In this document: piece by piece, positions 1,504-10,463 of the stretch
Layout of the letters: the number at the start of each line of letters is the position of its first letter
How positions within the stretch are numbered: the stretch's first letter is position 1
IMG/VR virus record: IMGVR_UViG_3300023284_000313
Location: 1-20,914 of that record
Length of the DNA: 20,914 nt
Source of the DNA: a virus
Reading direction: 5' to 3' (one strand)
Position numbers and translations under genes: made by a program
Notes under the pieces: model-generated
Database searches by the model: none
What the model saw: the letters and a program-made list of their open reading frames with translations, nothing else
Told to the model about the DNA's origin: nothing

Positions 1504-2754
1504 TTAGTTTAGACCTTTGTTTAAAAATATAACTTCATGCTCTCCTGATTCGTGATGTGGAGGATAGCAAAGCTGACCGTAAGGTACGAAATCTATGCCA
1601 CTTTTCCAAAGTAAATAACTAAGGATTGCCTGATCGTGGCGGTGTCCTTTCTCTGCTCCCTTGCCGTCGTTGAAGCTACCTAAATCTGCTTGCCTTATCC
1701 ACTCGTCTAGTATCTTATTGACATGCTCAAATCGTACATCCATCACAATAACACAAGCCATTATCTGAGGACACTCCTCTATGTCTGTGGCTCCTAGATT
1801 CTTAATGGCATGTTCATCTATGTAATATTTCAAGGGATGTCCTACATTATCGTAAATAGTAAACCCGTTTGTCCCTGCGTAATCCAAAGCTTTGTCTGGG
1901 TTTCTCAAGATCCTTACTGTGGAATCTATCCATATTATTTGTTCATATCCTTTGAGCCTTGCTGCATCAAATAAAGCAGGCTTAAATCCATACGGTCTGT
2001 CTTTATGTGATATCCCTTTCCACTTATGGATAGTAACTCCATTGTGTTCTGTTAGTTGGTGATCGGGAGAGCATATCATAAAATCTGTCTCCAGCCCTAT
2101 CTCCTTAACTGAGTCTATCATTCCAAGTAAAGCCTGGTTATAATCCTCTCTTCCTTTGGAGCTAAATGATATCACGCACGTCTTAGGTCTTGCCTTTTTC
2201 TCTACTTCAATGGCTGCTGTCTCTGAGTCTTCATACCTGTAAATATGTAAAGGCTTGTTTATGATTATTTCTGAATTGACTCTTTCTACCGCTTGTTCTG
2301 CCCACTTGTAATCTTCTCCATACATAATATCTTGGAAGGTGATGTCTTGTATTAGCTCTCTTCTCCATACGTCTGAGGTATAAGGCTTTCGCTTTACTGT
2401 TACGGTTTTATTATGTAATTGTTCGTTCTCATATTCTTTGGAGGTAGCAACCATGTATTTGACACCGTTAATCCATGACTCATGCAGATAGCAAATAACA
2501 TCTACCCCAGATTCTATTGCCTTCATGACTTCTTCAAAGAATTCTGGGAATAGCTCATCATCATCATCTAACCACATAACATACTCTCCTTGAGCGAGTT
2601 GCAACAATGCGTTACGCTTTGCTCCTATGCTTCGTTTCTTATTGTCGATAAGACAGAGCCATTCGATATCGTCTCGGTGTCGGAAGTCTTGAGACATCTT
2701 TTGCAATTTGCTTATCCTGTCAGGGATTGAGGCTGTGAGTATTGATAGTTTCAT
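1504..2754 (-). CDS. two-domain glycosyltransferase (GT-A plus second transferase-like domain)
   Basis: A 416-residue protein. Residues 1-190 form a family-2-like GT-A domain. MKLSILTASIPDR opens the first strand, GAKRNALLQLAQGEY (44-58) precedes the nucleotide-sugar and metal site WLDDDDE (61-67), and GEDYKW (146-151) fits the acceptor/base motif. Residues 191-416 form a separate alpha/beta domain starting KTCVISFSSKGR. It has FKPALFDAARLKGYEQIIWIDSTVRI (257-282), where IDS resembles a DxD-type metal site, and HRHDQAILSYLLWK (371-384), as in small-molecule transferases that read a partner residue after a cisoid loop. I infer a bifunctional enzyme adding two sugars. The sugar and acceptor are unknown. 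Its start overlaps the upstream gene by 4 bp. Confidence 0.82.
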   Translation of the reverse strand: MKLSILTASIPDRISKLQKMSQDFRHRDDIEWLCLIDNKKRSIGAKRNALLQLAQGEYVMWLDDDDELFPEFFEEVMKAIESGVDVICYLHESWINGVKYMVATSKEYENEQLHNKTVTVKRKPYTSDVWRRELIQDITFQDIMYGEDYKWAEQAVERVNSEIIINKPLHIYRYEDSETAAIEVEKKARPKTCVISFSSKGREDYNQALLGMIDSVKEIGLETDFMICSPDHQLTEHNGVTIHKWKGISHKDRPYGFKPALFDAARLKGYEQIIWIDSTVRILRNPDKALDYAGTNGFTIYDNVGHPLKYYIDEHAIKNLGATDIEECPQIMACVIVMDVRFEHVNKILDEWIRQADLGSFNDGKGAEKGHRHDQAILSYLLWKSGIDFVPYGQLCYPPHHESGEHEVIFLNKGLN

Positions 2755-3188
2755 TTTATAAAAAAGTTATCACTATTTTTGTATTTCTTTTCCATGTATT
2801 CAAAAAAATCACCTCCAATCTTAAAGCCTATGGCTCTATTTTTATACGGTACAAATTTCTTTTCTCTTCTATCCTTAACATATTTATATACTTGTTTTTT
2901 ATATTTGTTTTTATATATTCTGCTTTCTACTTGCCATTTACCAGGAATTATTGCATATGATTCAGTTTCATAAAAAAACTTTAAAGTTTTTACTAATAAG
3001 TCACAATCAAATAAATGATTATACTTTAGCCATCGTTCATGTCTAGTCTCATCAAGCTGCTCGGCCTCTCTATATTTGTTATCCCAATAATCCTTCTCGG
3101 CTTTTTCAGCTTCTTCATGAGTATCAAATTCAGTTGCCTCTGTAATATATGCTATATGCTTTCCTGTTGTATAATTTTTAACTGACAT
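2751..3188 (-). CDS. hypothetical protein, 145 aa
   Basis: Unrecognised. It is highly charged and lysine/tyrosine-rich, with no signal peptide or membrane segment. The N-terminal 20 residues (SVKNYTTGKHIAYITEATE) look like beta strands. Residues 22-65 are strongly helical and may form a coiled coil (EEAEKAEKDYWDNKYREAEQ). A basic segment KYKKQVYKYVKDRREKK covers about 95-111. Neighbours are the two-domain glycosyltransferase (4 bp overlap) and the FkbM-type methyltransferase (start and stop share one base), so it may assist the glycan pathway, but nothing in its sequence shows that. Confidence 0.65.
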   Translation of the reverse strand: MSVKNYTTGKHIAYITEATEFDTHEEAEKAEKDYWDNKYREAEQLDETRHERWLKYNHLFDCDLLVKTLKFFYETESYAIIPGKWQVESRIYKNKYKKQVYKYVKDRREKKFVPYKNRAIGFKIGGDFFEYMEKKYKNSDNFFIK

Positions 3189-3772
3189 TATTTAGCTAAT
3201 ATTAAATTCTCTGCGTTCTTATGAATTAACTTCATACCAAAATCCCCACAATAATTAATGTACTTGTCTTCTTCCTTTCCGTTAAATTCTATGCAAACCA
3301 TCTCTGTTCCGGTTGCATCCAGATCAATCTGAGTCAGAATGTCATAGTCTAATCCCTCGGTGTCTATTGAGATGAACTCAAAGAAGAAAGGGTTTTCTTC
3401 ATAGAATTCTTCCCAAGTTACCAGGTTTACTTCTGTCTCTGTAAAGGTTTCATCAACCCAGCGCTTTGTTTCTATCTCAACACATGTTCCTACTGCATTG
3501 GCATTGTCCCAAAACTTCACCTTGCCTGTCTTTTGTCCTATCCCTATATTGCAACAAAGAACTTTATGTCCAAACTGTTGACAATTTTCTTTTAGCTTCT
3601 CAAAAATTGAAGGACTCGGCTCCAGACAAATACCTTTCCATCCCTTGTCTGCTAAGGCTCTGGTGTTGCTTAATCCAATTCCATCGTAGGCTCCTATATC
3701 TAAAAAAGTTCCTTCCTTCTCTTCAAAGTATTTAAGGATATGCTGTTCTTCTGAATTTTGTGAATAGCTCAA
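3188..3772 (-). CDS. FkbM-family methyltransferase
   Basis: A 194-residue class I SAM methyltransferase of the FkbM type, a family that O-methylates sugars and polyketides. The SAM loop is FLDIGAYDGIGLSNT (23-37), where DIGAYDG is the family's typical motif I. GICLEPSPSIFEKL (47-60) is motif II, with the glutamate that binds the SAM ribose. FISIDTEGLDYDILTQID (133-150) is the family's hallmark IDTEG.(D/E)..IL segment, and MVCIEFNG (158-165) follows. It overlaps the upstream glycosyltransferase by 4 bp. Methylating a sugar of the glycan made by its neighbours is the simplest role. An N-terminal MSYSQNSEEQHIL is also common in this family. Confidence 0.88.
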   Translation of the reverse strand: MSYSQNSEEQHILKYFEEKEGTFLDIGAYDGIGLSNTRALADKGWKGICLEPSPSIFEKLKENCQQFGHKVLCCNIGIGQKTGKVKFWDNANAVGTCVEIETKRWVDETFTETEVNLVTWEEFYEENPFFFEFISIDTEGLDYDILTQIDLDATGTEMVCIEFNGKEEDKYINYCGDFGMKLIHKNAENLILAK

Positions 3773-4317
3773 TATAGTTTGTTTTGTGTTGAGTAACGAT
3801 AATGATACATGTCTCTGTCAATGAATACCTCTGTCTTTAAAAGATTCCTGTTCTTTATCTCAGTACTCCAGGCGTAATCTTCTTGGTTGGATTTGTGTGG
3901 GAATTTCACCAGTTCGGCTATCTCTCTTTTGATAGGGCTTATATGATTGGGATATCTTAAATAGATTCCGTTTATCAGTTTGAAGGGATGCCCCAACTTT
4001 ATCTCAAAGTTCTCTCTGGTGGCTCCATTGGTAGTCATGTAGCCTCTCATTCCTACGCAGTCTGGCTTTGTTTCTATGGCTTGTAATATCTCATTGACAT
4101 AGTATTCAGGAACCCAGTCATCATCATCAATGAATACCGTGTAATCTCCCTTTGCCATATTTATCAACCAGTTCCTTTTCTCTCCTGTTGTTATGTTCAT
4201 TTCTTGATTCCAGATAATCTGTACCTTTGAAGTTCTCTGACTAGATAAATGACTTAATAAATCATTGAGCATCTCTTCTCTTTGTGGTACTGTGCATATA
4301 AGGATGGAGAGTTTCAT
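3769..4317 (-). CDS. family-2-like glycosyltransferase (GT-A)
   Basis: A 182-residue single-domain GT-A enzyme. MKLSILICTVPQREEML is the first strand and loop, TTGEKRNWLINMAKGDY (43-59) leads into the metal and nucleotide-sugar site VFIDDDDWVP (61-70), and NQEDYAW (144-150) is the acceptor-side ED motif. Opening, DDDD and EDY.W motifs match those of the N-terminal domain at 1504-2754, so the two are probably paralogues. It is short for the family and probably lacks a membrane anchor, so it would act in the cytoplasm on a soluble or lipid-linked acceptor. It overlaps the genes on both sides by 4 bp. Confidence 0.85.
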   Translation of the reverse strand: MKLSILICTVPQREEMLNDLLSHLSSQRTSKVQIIWNQEMNITTGEKRNWLINMAKGDYTVFIDDDDWVPEYYVNEILQAIETKPDCVGMRGYMTTNGATRENFEIKLGHPFKLINGIYLRYPNHISPIKREIAELVKFPHKSNQEDYAWSTEIKNRNLLKTEVFIDRDMYHYRYSTQNKLY

Positions 4318-4541
4318 AGTTCTCTAATTGTTTTTACCATTTCTTTTTTAAACTCCCTTTTAATTTGTCTTTCTGTCTTGGTTTTTTCTTTCATCTGATT
4401 AGCATGTCTCTTATGCCAAAACTCATGGCTCTCAATAAGTCTTTTTATTTCATGTATTAATTCCTCTTTTGAAAACTTTCCTATTGCGCCCCAATCTCGT
4501 TGGTCTACTTTTCGTATATTACTAAATTCTTTATCAGTCAT
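4314..4541 (-). CDS. hypothetical charged helical protein, 75 aa
   Basis: Unrecognised. Residues 22-75 are rich in K, E and R and predicted mostly helical, with EELIHEIKRLIESHEFW then a strongly basic stretch ending KREFKKEMVKTIREL. This resembles small phage proteins that bind nucleic acid or a partner enzyme, but no motif decides it. It overlaps both flanking glycosyltransferase genes by 4 bp, which makes it a confident gene even though its role is open. Confidence 0.6.
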   Translation of the reverse strand: MTDKEFSNIRKVDQRDWGAIGKFSKEELIHEIKRLIESHEFWHKRHANQMKEKTKTERQIKREFKKEMVKTIREL

Positions 4542-5245
4542 ACTGGTTGTTTTGAGTTAGGATAAAATAATGGTAAGTGATACTCTTCTGGCAGATTAAA
4601 GTTTGCTGATCTCCTTCGTTTAAATACTTCCTCATCTTGATGGAAGTAACTCTCTGTTTCTCTGTAATGAACATCCCATTGTCCCTTCCCATAAGCAGGG
4701 TGATTGTGTTGAAATATTTGCCTGTCAACATACTTGTACTTTCCTAGCATCTGAGCTACGACTGTTTGTTCATTGTCACACCAAAGAGAATAATAATCAT
4801 TATGATAGATATAATTGAACCTGTCATAATACTTACGTCCCATAATTGACATAGTTACCAAGCACTTATTGTTACCGTCGGGATAATGCAATAAACAATC
4901 CAAATCTTCAGGCATATCTTTTCTTATGATATCATCGAATCCGTCCACTATCCATTCCATGTCATCACTCATGTTAATTAAGATGTCCCATTCTATTGCT
5001 GCACTTGCGAAATGCATATCTCTATTGATAGCATCGATCTTGCCGTCACTAATTCCTTTATCCCATTGGTAATTTATTTTGCCATTACCAATAAACGCAA
5101 TGACTTCAGGCAATGTCTTATCGTTTCCATCTAATGTCAACCATACTAAATGATCTTTACTACTTATCTTATTATCTATATTAGTCAAACAATCTCTCAG
5201 CTTATCAGGTCTTCCTCTGGATGGAAACTTGAATAGTATTTTCAT
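4538..5245 (-). CDS. GT-A glycosyltransferase-like protein
   Basis: A 235-residue protein that I read as a GT-A fold. ILFKFPSRGRPDKLRDCL (3-20) is a common opening of phage and bacterial glycosyltransferase-like proteins. WLTLDGND (35-42) follows strand 2, and ILINMSDDMEWIVDGFDD (88-105) supplies a DD pair at the place of the DxD metal site. The histidine-rich segment FQHNHPAYGKGQWDVHY (about 178-194) lies where acceptor-binding residues usually are. The motifs are weaker than in its neighbours, so activity is less certain. It overlaps flanking genes by 4 bp. Confidence 0.72.
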   Translation of the reverse strand: MKILFKFPSRGRPDKLRDCLTNIDNKISSKDHLVWLTLDGNDKTLPEVIAFIGNGKINYQWDKGISDGKIDAINRDMHFASAAIEWDILINMSDDMEWIVDGFDDIIRKDMPEDLDCLLHYPDGNNKCLVTMSIMGRKYYDRFNYIYHNDYYSLWCDNEQTVVAQMLGKYKYVDRQIFQHNHPAYGKGQWDVHYRETESYFHQDEEVFKRRRSANFNLPEEYHLPLFYPNSKQPV

Positions 5246-5436
5246 TTATCTTCTATTTTAATCCACCCAACAATACTGCCAACGCCAGTGCAGGCTGCTA
5301 CTGTATAAAAGACTTCTGCTTTTCCTATCGGCTCCCAGTTACAATTCGCAGCTTTAATAATGCATTTTATTTCGCCTATTAAGGCTAAGCTAATTATTAT
5401 AAAATAACAGCCCCAAAGTATATTTTCTATTTTCAT
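5242..5436 (-). CDS. small two-helix membrane protein, 64 aa
   Basis: Two hydrophobic segments, roughly residues 6-28 and 42-58, are joined by a short loop containing CNWEPIGKAE. The protein is unrecognised. It starts and stops inside 4-bp overlaps with two glycosyltransferase genes, so it is part of the same translational chain. A membrane partner for lipid-linked glycan assembly is conceivable but is only inference from position. Confidence 0.6.
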   Translation of the reverse strand: MKIENILWGCYFIIISLALIGEIKCIIKAANCNWEPIGKAEVFYTVAACTGVGSIVGWIKIEDK

Positions 5437-6119
5437 ATCGGTTGGTGAATTTTAAGTTTGTTCATGGCTTTAATAAATATCGGTCTATTGATTTCTATTA
5501 ACTCCTCCTTATTGTCTATGCTTGATCGTTGCTTTTCGCTTAATCTCCCCTCTCCGTAATCCATTGCTGCTAAATACTTTTCCGTTCCTTTTACTTTTAT
5601 GTAAGGACTAGAGTTTAACCCGGCTGCGTGAATCCTTTGAGAGTATTCAGCGTGTTCAAATCCGTATTGCCCAAAGTTCTTATTGAAACCACCTACCTTT
5701 TGTATTACTTCTTTTGTAAGAAACATAAATACTCCTCCGCATTCTTGATAGTGATTTAATACAACAGAATCTAATCGAAATCTGCCGTCCTTCCTTTTTT
5801 TACCCGTCTGCTTAATTAATTTATGATAAGAATCTTTTAGGTATAAAAAATGATGTTCTCCTGTTTTCCTGTGAGCTTCTATGAAAAAATGAGAAAATCC
5901 AATCGTAAGAATTTTACAATCATCATCAAATAAAAATATGTATTTGCATTTATCTAATTCTTTTAAGCATCTATTTTTTGCTTCTGCAATATTTGAGCAA
6001 TCATCTATTATTACTGAATGAGTACAAAATCCAAATTTCTTCATGTTTTCTAAATCCTTATCCCATTCAGCACGATGCTCTGGTCTATTATAATTTGTTA
6101 CTCCTATTCCTATTCGCAT
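5433..6119 (-). CDS. family-2-like glycosyltransferase (GT-A)
   Basis: A 228-residue GT-A enzyme. The first strand is RIGIGVTNYNRPEH (2-15), HSVIIDDCSNIAEAKNRCL (34-52) follows strand 2, and YIFLFDDDC (60-68) is the DxD-type metal and nucleotide-sugar site. ECGGVFMFLTKEVIQKVGGFNKNFGQYGFEHAEYSQRI is the region after the acceptor loop, with GGF and a glutamate-rich EHAEYSQR motif, as in polypeptide GalNAc-transferase-like and chondroitin-synthase-like family-2 enzymes. The substrate is unknown. It overlaps the GT-B gene upstream by 10 bp and the small membrane gene downstream by 4 bp. Confidence 0.85.
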   Translation of the reverse strand: MRIGIGVTNYNRPEHRAEWDKDLENMKKFGFCTHSVIIDDCSNIAEAKNRCLKELDKCKYIFLFDDDCKILTIGFSHFFIEAHRKTGEHHFLYLKDSYHKLIKQTGKKRKDGRFRLDSVVLNHYQECGGVFMFLTKEVIQKVGGFNKNFGQYGFEHAEYSQRIHAAGLNSSPYIKVKGTEKYLAAMDYGEGRLSEKQRSSIDNKEELIEINRPIFIKAMNKLKIHQPI

Positions 6120-7204
6120 AGTCTTTCGTATAGTTGTAAGCGTTTCTTATTCACCGTGTTAATGTTGTATTTGTCTTTCACATCTTCATAAAGTTGCTCT
6201 CCTAAATCTCTAATCCGGTTGGGGTTCTCTGCTAACTTTCTCATGTGAACATACCAGTCAATGAAGTCTCTGCCTGGTTTTACCAATAAGCAGTTGTCGT
6301 TTATTATCAGATCGTAAGGTTTTACCTGGGAAACAATACAGGCTTTCTTTTTAAACCCTGCCTCTATCATTTTAAGTTCTGACTTGCACCGGTTAAAAGG
6401 AGTATCGTCTAAAGGGATGAGAGCGCAGTCTATCTGATCGTAAAGAGTGGCGTAATTGTAAACATCTTTTCCCCACAATCTTCGGTAAGGTTCATCTGCT
6501 ATATCTTCTTTTATATACTTTTTTAGACGGTCTCTGTAAGTTGGTGTGCATAACTTAAAGTCATTGGTGAAGGTTCTTTCAATGCTAGCGTATTCTTGCC
6601 CACTTGAAAACGTTGAACAGACCTGTATTTTCTTTCTTAAATTGTAATCCAGGCTTACTCGTTTAAAGCTGTCTGTCATCAGTTCAATATCCTTCCGGTG
6701 GAATACCCCTCCTATCCATCCAAACCTCGCTCTATCGCTCTCTATGGGCTTTGTAGACCATTGTTTCTCTGTGGGGTCTATGGCGTTTTCTAATATGGTT
6801 ACGTTCTTGTTGAAGTCTTTGATCTTATCTGCCAGATACGGAGTTGTTGTTGTTACCCAATCTGCACCCCTCATAGCTTCTTCTGTTTGTTTAGGGATGT
6901 CGTTTTCCTGGTAAGTTTTATACATCGGGTGGCTTCTATCTAAATGCCAGTAGTCGTCTATGTCGAAGAGAATCTTTAGTCCGGCCTTTCGGTATTTGTC
7001 GTAATACTCCTGGGTCTTTCCTTTGTAACTGGCTATCCTTAAAATTTGTACGCATTGAAACCCTGTTAAGTCTGTTCCGTAGGCTGCCTGAGTCTTGATG
7101 ACTTCTATTTGGTTCTTCTTTAGCATTGTCCAATGAGGGAGTATCTGCCTGAAATATTGTAAGGCTGTCTCGTCTTTGGCTACTTCGATTAGGACTTTGA
7201 CCAT
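6110..7204 (-). CDS. GT-B glycosyltransferase (family-4-like)
   Basis: A 364-residue two-Rossmann-domain (GT-B) enzyme. The N-terminal domain has LKILFDIDDYWHLDRSHPMY (76-95), a segment recurrent in phage and Bacteroidota GT-B proteins, then TTTTPYLADKI (118-128) and VTILENAID (135-143), the typical end of the acceptor domain. The C-terminal domain starts FGWIGGVFHRKDIELM (161-176), where the glycine loop contacts the nucleotide. IPLDDTPFNRCKSELKMIEAG (about 279-299) resembles the donor-binding E-x7-E region. It is probably cytoplasmic. Its start lies 16 bp inside the upstream sigma-like gene, the widest overlap of the cassette, which suggests tight coupling. Donor and acceptor are unknown. 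Confidence 0.85.
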   Translation of the reverse strand: MVKVLIEVAKDETALQYFRQILPHWTMLKKNQIEVIKTQAAYGTDLTGFQCVQILRIASYKGKTQEYYDKYRKAGLKILFDIDDYWHLDRSHPMYKTYQENDIPKQTEEAMRGADWVTTTTPYLADKIKDFNKNVTILENAIDPTEKQWSTKPIESDRARFGWIGGVFHRKDIELMTDSFKRVSLDYNLRKKIQVCSTFSSGQEYASIERTFTNDFKLCTPTYRDRLKKYIKEDIADEPYRRLWGKDVYNYATLYDQIDCALIPLDDTPFNRCKSELKMIEAGFKKKACIVSQVKPYDLIINDNCLLVKPGRDFIDWYVHMRKLAENPNRIRDLGEQLYEDVKDKYNINTVNKKRLQLYERLCE

Positions 7205-9455: not shown

Positions 9456-10463
9456 TTACTTGGTAATTGAGTTATTAACACTTTTAAATATTTCATAAGC
9501 TACTTGTGGTACTATTGCATTTCCATATCCTTTGATTGATTCGTTTCTCCATTTAGAAAAGGTAATTCTGTCCAGTCGTTTGGAAAGCCCATCATCTCCG
9601 CTACAAATTGGGGATTGAGTTGGGAAGTCTTGCCAGTTTTGTCTTGATAACTTATTGTATCTCTCAAATTGTTTGTCAGTGGATTGTGATTTTTTCTCGG
9701 GTTCGTATCGCTGCGGCCCCCTTTGTTGTCTGATGCTGTTGGGGTTGGTAATAAGTTCATCCTGGCTGCTCTGTCCAATGTCATTTGACTCTTTCCTTCT
9801 TTGACTAGATTCAATGTATGTTCTGATTTCCCTGCTTCGCTCGCTGTTGGTGTTGGAAGAAGCTGGTGAAATAACTGTTCCGTTAAATTTCCTGGTGTCC
9901 ACTGCCGGCCTATTGATTTCCTGTATTCTGTCCTTTTCTTTCTTCTCTTCTCGTTTGGCTTTATGTCTATTGTTGACGGAGTGAGCAACAAACCAGATTC
10001 GATCTCTTCGATGTGGAGCATTGACGGCACAAGCTGGAAGTAATACCGGTTGTATCTCGTACCCTTCATTTTCCATCTCAAACTGCACTTCGTCGAATAC
10101 CATTCCCCCGTTCCAACTAAGGAGGCCAGAAACATTTTCGCCCACAATGAAACTCGGTCGAATCTCTCTAATTGCTCTAAGCATTTCCGGCCAGAGATGT
10201 CTCTCATCTTCTTTGCCCTTTCGTTTTCCTGCGGTTGAATAGGGTTGACATGGGAATCCTCCTGTAAGGATGTCGATTTGTCCTCGGTGAATAGTAAAGT
10301 CTGTTTTGGTAATGTCGTCATAGCTAATCGCTTTAGGCCAATAATGTTTTAATATTTTTTGTCCGAATTTATTCCATTCACAATGAAAAACGTTTTCCCA
10401 TCCCATCCACTCAGCAGCAAGATCAAAACCTCCAATTCCTGAAAATAAACTTCCATGTTTCAA
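9456..10463 (-). CDS. dcm: C5-cytosine DNA methyltransferase
   Basis: A 335-residue enzyme that methylates cytosine at C5 in DNA. Motif I is LFSGIGGFDLAAEW (6-19), motif IV with the catalytic Cys72 is GGFPCQPYS (68-76), motif VI is VGENVSG (107-113), motif VIII is APHRRDRIWFVA (149-160), and motifs IX-X end as KGYGNAIVPQVAYEIF (311-326). Residues 163-290, where the target-recognition region should be, are polar and repetitive, with paired NTNS/NPNS motifs. This segment and its upstream part also carry a second reading frame. The start is TTG, since the only way to include motif I is to begin there, and TTGA overlaps the upstream stop. It may protect phage DNA from host restriction. Confidence 0.93.
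   Translation of the reverse strand: MKHGSLFSGIGGFDLAAEWMGWENVFHCEWNKFGQKILKHYWPKAISYDDITKTDFTIHRGQIDILTGGFPCQPYSTAGKRKGKEDERHLWPEMLRAIREIRPSFIVGENVSGLLSWNGGMVFDEVQFEMENEGYEIQPVLLPACAVNAPHRRDRIWFVAHSVNNRHKAKREEKKEKDRIQEINRPAVDTRKFNGTVISPASSNTNSERSREIRTYIESSQRRKESNDIGQSSQDELITNPNSIRQQRGPQRYEPEKKSQSTDKQFERYNKLSRQNWQDFPTQSPICSGDDGLSKRLDRITFSKWRNESIKGYGNAIVPQVAYEIFKSVNNSITK
9512..10321 (-). CDS. long +1-frame gene inside the cytosine methyltransferase
   Basis: A 269-residue frame lies wholly inside the methyltransferase gene, shifted by one base. It has the composition of a protein. It contains WYSTKCSLRWKMKGTRYNRYY (74-94) and FQLVPS, three copies of a L-T/P-TP-(S/T) motif (LLTPST at 112, LLPTPTAS at 154 and 190), and QLNPQFVAEMMGFPNDWTELPF (234-255). 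I recognise these as motifs of phage proteins annotated as methylase-related, so the frame may be a family of its own or an alternative C-terminal domain reached by frameshifting. Its own ATG at 10321 is present. Expression is unproven. Conserved DNA repeats that favour both frames are the alternative explanation. Confidence 0.45.
   Translation of the reverse strand: MTTLPKQTLLFTEDKSTSLQEDSHVNPIQPQENERAKKMRDISGRKCLEQLERFDRVSLWAKMFLASLVGTGEWYSTKCSLRWKMKGTRYNRYYFQLVPSMLHIEEIESGLLLTPSTIDIKPNEKRRKKRTEYRKSIGRQWTPGNLTEQLFHQLLPTPTASEAGKSEHTLNLVKEGKSQMTLDRAARMNLLPTPTASDNKGGRSDTNPRKNHNPLTNNLRDTISYQDKTGKTSQLNPQFVAEMMGFPNDWTELPFLNGETNQSKDMEMQ

Follow-up and report, generated by a model that had tools for sequence, protein, structure and literature searches.

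We analysed a 20,914-base virus record (IMG/VR record IMGVR_UViG_3300023284_000313, referred to as a whole as the window) in which a C5 cytosine methyltransferase gene on the minus strand encloses a second gene in its +1 frame. The outer gene, alpha (9456..10463, minus strand; 335 aa, TTG start), is matched by PF00145 over residues 1-329 (E 1.4e-48) and by phrog_363 (E 9e-75), and motifs I, IV, VI, VIII and X of the C5 cytosine methyltransferases are all found in its translation. Specifically, motif I (FSGIGGFDLA, 10416..10445) precedes the overlap, motif IV (GGFPCQPYS, 10236..10262) holds the catalytic cysteine in line with its established role in this enzyme class, and motifs VIII (HRRDRIWFVA, 9984..10013) and X (GNAIVPQVA, 9498..9524) follow, each on the minus strand. 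The nested gene, beta (9512..10321, minus strand), extends from an ATG at 10321 to a TAG stop codon located within the sequence for motif X, and encodes 269 aa within a +1 open reading frame (ORF) that measures 278 codons from stop to stop. Most likely, as judged from the comparisons below, beta is the target-recognition subunit of a two-subunit C5 methyltransferase that would also supply motif IX, with alpha as the catalytic subunit carrying motifs I-VIII and X.

The beta protein is built from recognizable parts, all encoded on the minus strand. A conserved segment, GTGEWYSTKCSLRWKMKGTRYNRYYFQLVPS (10019..10111), overlaps alpha between motifs VI and VIII and is predicted to form a beta-hairpin; its residues W74, L81 and W83 are invariant or nearly so among 120 relatives, and it is the best-predicted part (local predicted local distance difference test score, pLDDT, about 85) of an otherwise poor structural model. 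Three LPTP-type cassettes and then LNPQFVAEMMGFPNDWTELPF come after it. With boundaries taken from LPTP sites in the translation, the second cassette (LLPTPTASE...) occupies 9755..9862 and the third (LLPTPTASD...GKTSQ) 9620..9754, and the first (LLTPSTID..., 9863..9988) resembles a cassette cluster, number 10, that is present in 7 relatives. The motif IX-like segment LNPQFVAEMMGFPNDWT (9569..9619), which overlaps FPTQSPICSGDDGL of alpha, draws support from conservation, fourfold-degenerate sites and its place before motif X, and its EMMGFP and W are invariant in the same 120 relatives. The motifs quoted in the initial annotation are thus all present, with the correction that it counted two cassettes where there are three. 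The phage proteins called methylase-related to which it refers also have a counterpart, in that residues 18-253 of beta align to positions 40-281 of the 329-position PHROG profile phrog_1008 ('DNA methyltransferase'; E 3e-26), which is matched by 120/120 aligned members of the beta family.

Many of the long overlapping ORFs found in genomes are mere shadows of the coding frame. We compared the locus with 20,000 synonymous shuffles that preserved the frame-0 protein and its codon usage. The longest +1 ORF in the shuffles averaged 95 codons and reached 263 at most, and none of the 20,000 attained the observed 278; stops within the beta interval averaged 6.7 per shuffle, with 0/20,000 shuffles free of them. 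The 269-codon frame claimed in the initial annotation is accordingly confirmed. The +2 frame of the same methyltransferase stays open for only 37 codons at its longest. Selecting relatives by the answer was to be avoided, so we fetched 71 distinct loci with the frame-0 protein alone. In 71/71 the methyltransferase is intact, the +1 ORF spans at least 223 aa and the +1 family hidden Markov model (HMM) matches with E<1e-10, and the +2 frame is limited to 83 codons or fewer throughout. Stops in the +1 frame of relatives with an intact methyltransferase, named at the outset as the observation that would speak against a second gene, are therefore absent from these loci.

Substitution patterns identify the frame on which selection acts. 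Rates are given per frame-0 codon position 1/2/3, and those for the flanks and the C-terminal overlap come from gene pairs with 60-97% frame-0 identity. Before the overlap the rates are.186/.138/.442 and after it.271/.213/.543, and in the C-terminal overlap they are.228/.086/.210, where both frames appear constrained. The variable region between motifs VIII and IX, compared through 608 ungapped DNA matches (22,831 codons), yields.366/.146/.104, which is the signature of +1 coding. Identity is higher in +1 than in frame 0 in 608/608 of these matches (mean.82 vs.52), with the qualification that the compared sequences are related to one another and the counts are non-independent tests. Fourfold sites of frame 0 differ by 2.8% in the variable region and those of +1 by 40.7%; outside the overlap, about 51% of the frame-0 fourfold sites differ in the same gene pairs. 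Frame-0 fourfold-site identity between random pairs changes along the gene: it starts at.31-.39 ahead of the overlap, climbs to.42-.61 in most of the catalytic overlap and to.74-.89 in the IX-like segment (0.89 at frame-0 codons 286-300), and falls to.33 once the overlap has ended. Beta is under purifying selection at the protein level, and in the target-recognition domain (TRD) slot of alpha frame 0 is under hardly any constraint and is nearly a passenger. From the variable-region rates and fourfold sites it follows that the constrained protein in the place of the TRD is the +1 protein.

The identity of beta is revealed by homologues in which everything lies in one frame. The mycobacteriophage proteins DillTech15 gp66 and WillSterrel gp71 are single polypeptides with the order motifs I-VIII, LPTP cassettes, RLxxAFPEWMMGWPxGWVT and motif X (IGNGVxPQQA); DillTech15 gp66 matches C5 methyltransferase PHROGs over residues 1-438 and phrog_1008 over 247-446 (E 3e-76). 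Conversely, an HMM built only from nested proteins recovers in-frame methyltransferases (L283, E 4.6e-13). From this order it follows that the LPTP region lies where a C5 methyltransferase has its TRD, and that MMGFPxxW, just before motif X, is probably in the place of motif IX. Within beta, LNPQFVAEMMGFPNDW sits at the motif IX place of the in-frame homologues; Pfam gives no match to the segment by itself, and the assignment is for this reason one of place and sequence resemblance. The model of another in-frame homologue, L289, resembles M.HhaI (Z 20.8, root-mean-square deviation 2.9, 203 residues), with a cassette region that is not confidently predicted. Since the mycobacteriophage enzymes carry these cassettes and MMGxPxxW in frame, at their TRD/IX slot, the nested gene most likely encodes the target-recognition subunit, and the link to target recognition suggested in the initial annotation gains support from the same homologues.

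Intermediate arrangements also exist. In many mycobacteriophage genes the array opens with one or two cassettes in +1 and carries on in frame 0 (L283-L312, mostly mycobacteriophage-like, have cassettes that begin in +1 and continue in frame 0 within one gene), and selection follows the frame: in such genes the rates are.077/.071/.305 for the in-frame cassette part and.251/.093/.105 for the +1 part. The Rhodococcus phage ReT1v-1 (L200, 2100-3435) shows a further layout, with cassettes read in +1 but both the MMGLP segment and motif X read in the catalytic frame. The two halves stand apart in Camperdownii (L199), with motifs I-VIII in gp76 and the cassettes, MMGWP and motif X in gp75, one frame on. 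The switch of selection once cassettes sit in frame 0 is difficult to reconcile with a +1 ORF that is only a by-product of the frame-0 protein and its codon bias, and that explanation is further contradicted, at the level of sequence evolution, by the shuffles, the frame-specific substitutions and the conservation across 71 loci. No result obtained here favours a chance or shadow ORF without a product; the shuffle, codon-position, fourfold-site and frame-switch results taken together lead us to reject it, and we assign it a practically negligible probability.

The cassettes behave as modules. Cutting 169 +1 proteins at LPTP sites gave 466 cassettes, 1-5 per protein and with a median length of 40 aa. 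Similar cassettes recur at differing positions and beside differing neighbours, the commonest cluster having 35 members in 30 distinct neighbour pairs, which looks like the module exchange seen in recognition domains. Selection on beta, its homology to in-frame TRD/IX regions and the modularity of its cassettes are all directly observed in these comparisons.

With respect to how beta is expressed, a +1 ATG lies 7-26 codons before motif IV in 144/145 genes, against 90.8 expected from synonymous shuffles, and in most of the 145 a +1 stop lies close upstream of this start zone, most commonly 30 or 22 codons ahead of motif IV. Shine-Dalgarno (SD)-like sequences precede the nested start in only 4/145 genes. 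This scarcity is as expected if most of the hosts are Bacteroidota, which initiate translation largely without SD sequences; that Bacteroidota host most of these phages is inferred from genome matches to the +1 family. In some phages of SD-using hosts, namely K1G, Tadhana and SEN4, SD-like sequences do precede the nested start. The excess of ATG codons, the upstream stops and these SD-like cases favour independent initiation of beta at its own ATG over frameshifting. Programmed frameshifting from alpha would fuse motifs I-III to a +1 C-terminus, and the +1 frame is indeed open just ahead of motif IV, where such a shift would be productive. However, the close upstream stop in most genes, the ATG in 144/145, the SD-like sequences at the nested start in the three phages named and the separate gene placed there by the annotators of K1G and Tadhana all speak against it, and we consider it quite unlikely. 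Of the two possibilities offered in the initial annotation, the overlapping gene is supported by the codon-position and fourfold-site tests and the conserved ATG, and the frameshifted alternative C-terminus is the less supported.

The nested family is widespread. A tblastn search with the +1 protein of the window returned 77 phage records from very different hosts, its weak matches reaching mycobacteriophages, and a gammaproteobacterial member used as query returned 202. A profile search of IMG/VR gave at least 600 candidate stretches, with the +1 family confirmed in at least 587 of them, and relatives of the +1 protein also occur in many Bacteroidota genomes. Among the first 190 loci analysed, the register inside the methyltransferase was always +1. 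Most of the loci in this set that appeared broken seem to be explained by a tblastn match running beyond the beta stop. In L005 (KT997847), at 1776-2719, the methyltransferase has its N-terminal portion in +1 with respect to the remainder, through either a genuine change of frame or, possibly, an indel introduced by sequencing, and L151 and L175 also look frame-disrupted.

Similar nested ORFs have been annotated before, as ORF30 of the E. coli phage K1G ('Mte8-like protein'), in Paenibacillus phages such as Tadhana (gp55) and in PHROG 1008, with K1G ORF30, Tadhana gp55 and PHROG 1008 belonging to one protein family with beta. These annotations were made by similarity only, and our partial coverage of the literature found no description of the role, selection or partner of such ORFs; a search for overlapping frames in phage methyltransferases, likewise of partial coverage, found no description of the present case. 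A 2025 paper reports an actinophage methylase into which a hidden HNH frame is inserted, which is a different phenomenon (PMC11855218). As far as found in the literature searched, the evidence of selection for a TRD in beta, the corresponding slot in alpha on which no selection of its own acts, the cassette arrays, the frame switch in mycobacteriophages and the wide spread among phages are new.

Building from these results, we propose that a single stretch of DNA encodes a two-subunit phage C5 methyltransferase, an explanation that we regard as probable when taken as a whole. Alpha would bind the cofactor and contribute the catalytic cysteine along with motifs I-VIII and X; beta, initiated at an ATG of its own that precedes alpha motif IV, would supply its conserved N-terminal segment, the LPTP recognition cassettes of about 40 aa and the motif IX-like segment. 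In the proposed complex, for which both proteins would be needed, beta would bind alpha and stand in for the TRD that alpha lacks, and its cassettes would direct methylation to one or more targets, perhaps with one specificity per cassette, and the resulting methylation would probably protect phage DNA from host restriction. We give slightly better than even chances to a broader reading, in which the locus represents a widespread class of phage C5 methyltransferases whose entire recognition apparatus is a nested gene in another frame with exchangeable cassettes. In this class cassettes would move between the +1 and 0 frames, and specificity would be reset by exchanges that hardly affect the catalytic protein, alpha tolerating any cassette because its TRD slot need only stay open.

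Several observations weigh against the two-subunit explanation. The relatedness of the compared sequences makes the counts behind it non-independent. AlphaFold modelled beta poorly (pLDDT 62.5, predicted template modelling score, pTM, 0.28), a fold search with this poor model gave no match below E 0.001, and the isolated C-terminal segments searched against Pfam gave no motif IX match. In M.EcoHK31I, an enzyme to which we return below, the TRD is predicted in the large subunit, unlike in our proposal for beta (PMC3404938). Alpha also retains a conserved frame-0 stretch at the motif IX place (FPTQSPVCxGDDGLP...), where both frames are apparently constrained, and may therefore be more self-sufficient than proposed.

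Beta might alternatively be a real and selected gene product that does not belong to the methyltransferase; it could, for instance, counter restriction or act as a regulator, with cassettes that bind host proteins. In favour of this, beta has neither a fold match nor a Pfam family; searches against Pfam, NCBIfam and PADLOC gave nothing credible, and the nested-family profile found no match up to E 1 among PDB sequences. Cassette exchange would equally fit an arms race with host proteins. This alternative nonetheless leaves unexplained why single-chain C5 methyltransferases have, between motifs VIII and X, the very cassettes of beta together with MMGxPxxW, and we judge it unlikely.

A further observation concerns alpha itself. 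In a group of Bacteroides and Parabacteroides loci (L166, L167, L170, L171, L159, L163 and L028), alpha contains in-frame TGA codons and the nested +1 ORF is stop-free. The TGA positions are mostly conserved Trp codons (AAE[W]MGW, FSR[W]RQAS); the genes nearby show no clear TGA recoding, and the fetched stretches contain no tRNA. Recoding, readthrough and decay of alpha only are all candidate explanations. The 2-3 TGA codons with an open beta in the Bacteroides prophages could mean that alpha is a passenger and that beta, perhaps acting with another (host) methyltransferase, is the main reason why the locus persists. Against this stand the intact alpha in 71/71 of the nearest relatives of the window, the conservation of the alpha motifs, and the location of the TGA codons largely at conserved Trp codons, where they may be read as Trp; we hold a passenger role for alpha to be very improbable.

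The two-subunit explanation bears on annotation as well as on mechanism. Annotation often retains one of two strongly overlapping genes, and only one is listed in many of the phage records examined; for many phage methyltransferases, databases therefore probably lack the part that sets specificity. Predicting specificity from the annotated protein alone addresses a stretch without selection of its own. The locus also represents a rare kind of overlap, with products that very likely cooperate and with selection that visibly follows a module between frames, and it opens to testing the question of how phages acquire new methylation specificities. Elsewhere in the window, a minus-strand gene run (1504-7204) includes a family 2 glycosyltransferase (1504-2754) and an FkbM-type methyltransferase (3188-3772), with several similar-looking neighbours that have no Pfam match; these genes possibly serve the sugar decoration of the host surface or of the phage.

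In terms of known systems, the cassette arrays recall the multispecific C5 methyltransferases M.SPRI and M.phi3TI of Bacillus phages, in which several recognition modules, each of about 40 aa, follow one another in frame within the variable region of one polypeptide. The nested family has tandem modules of this type in its variable region, but in the +1 frame. DillTech15 gp66, WillSterrel gp71 and L289 resemble the window locus in having LPTP cassettes, MMGWPxGWVT and motif X at the TRD, IX and X positions, and differ in using one frame, save for one or two leading +1 cassettes in many genes of this type. Among split enzymes, M.AquI has its catalytic part and its IX-bearing part on two polypeptides (PMC3404938). 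The division into catalytic and IX-bearing polypeptides would be shared with the window locus if the IX-like segment of beta is indeed motif IX, whereas the location of motif X on the small subunit, typical of M.AquI, is not: beta lies wholly within alpha and stops inside motif X, which stays in alpha in frame 0. Camperdownii gp76/gp75 comes nearer to the M.AquI division than the window locus does.

In arrangement the locus resembles M.EcoHK31I. Lee, Kam and Shaw reportedly described in 1995 that the gene for its small polypeptide lies inside that for the large one, in a different frame, and that methylation in vitro requires both. The small gene of the window locus is likewise nested in another frame. 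M.EcoHK31I (YGGCCR) has motifs I-VIII and X in its large polypeptide and motif IX in the small one (PMC3404938), and the large polypeptide of the window locus likewise has motifs I-VIII and X. The difference is that beta also bears the variable region, as a selected array that in its family comprises 1-5 cassettes.
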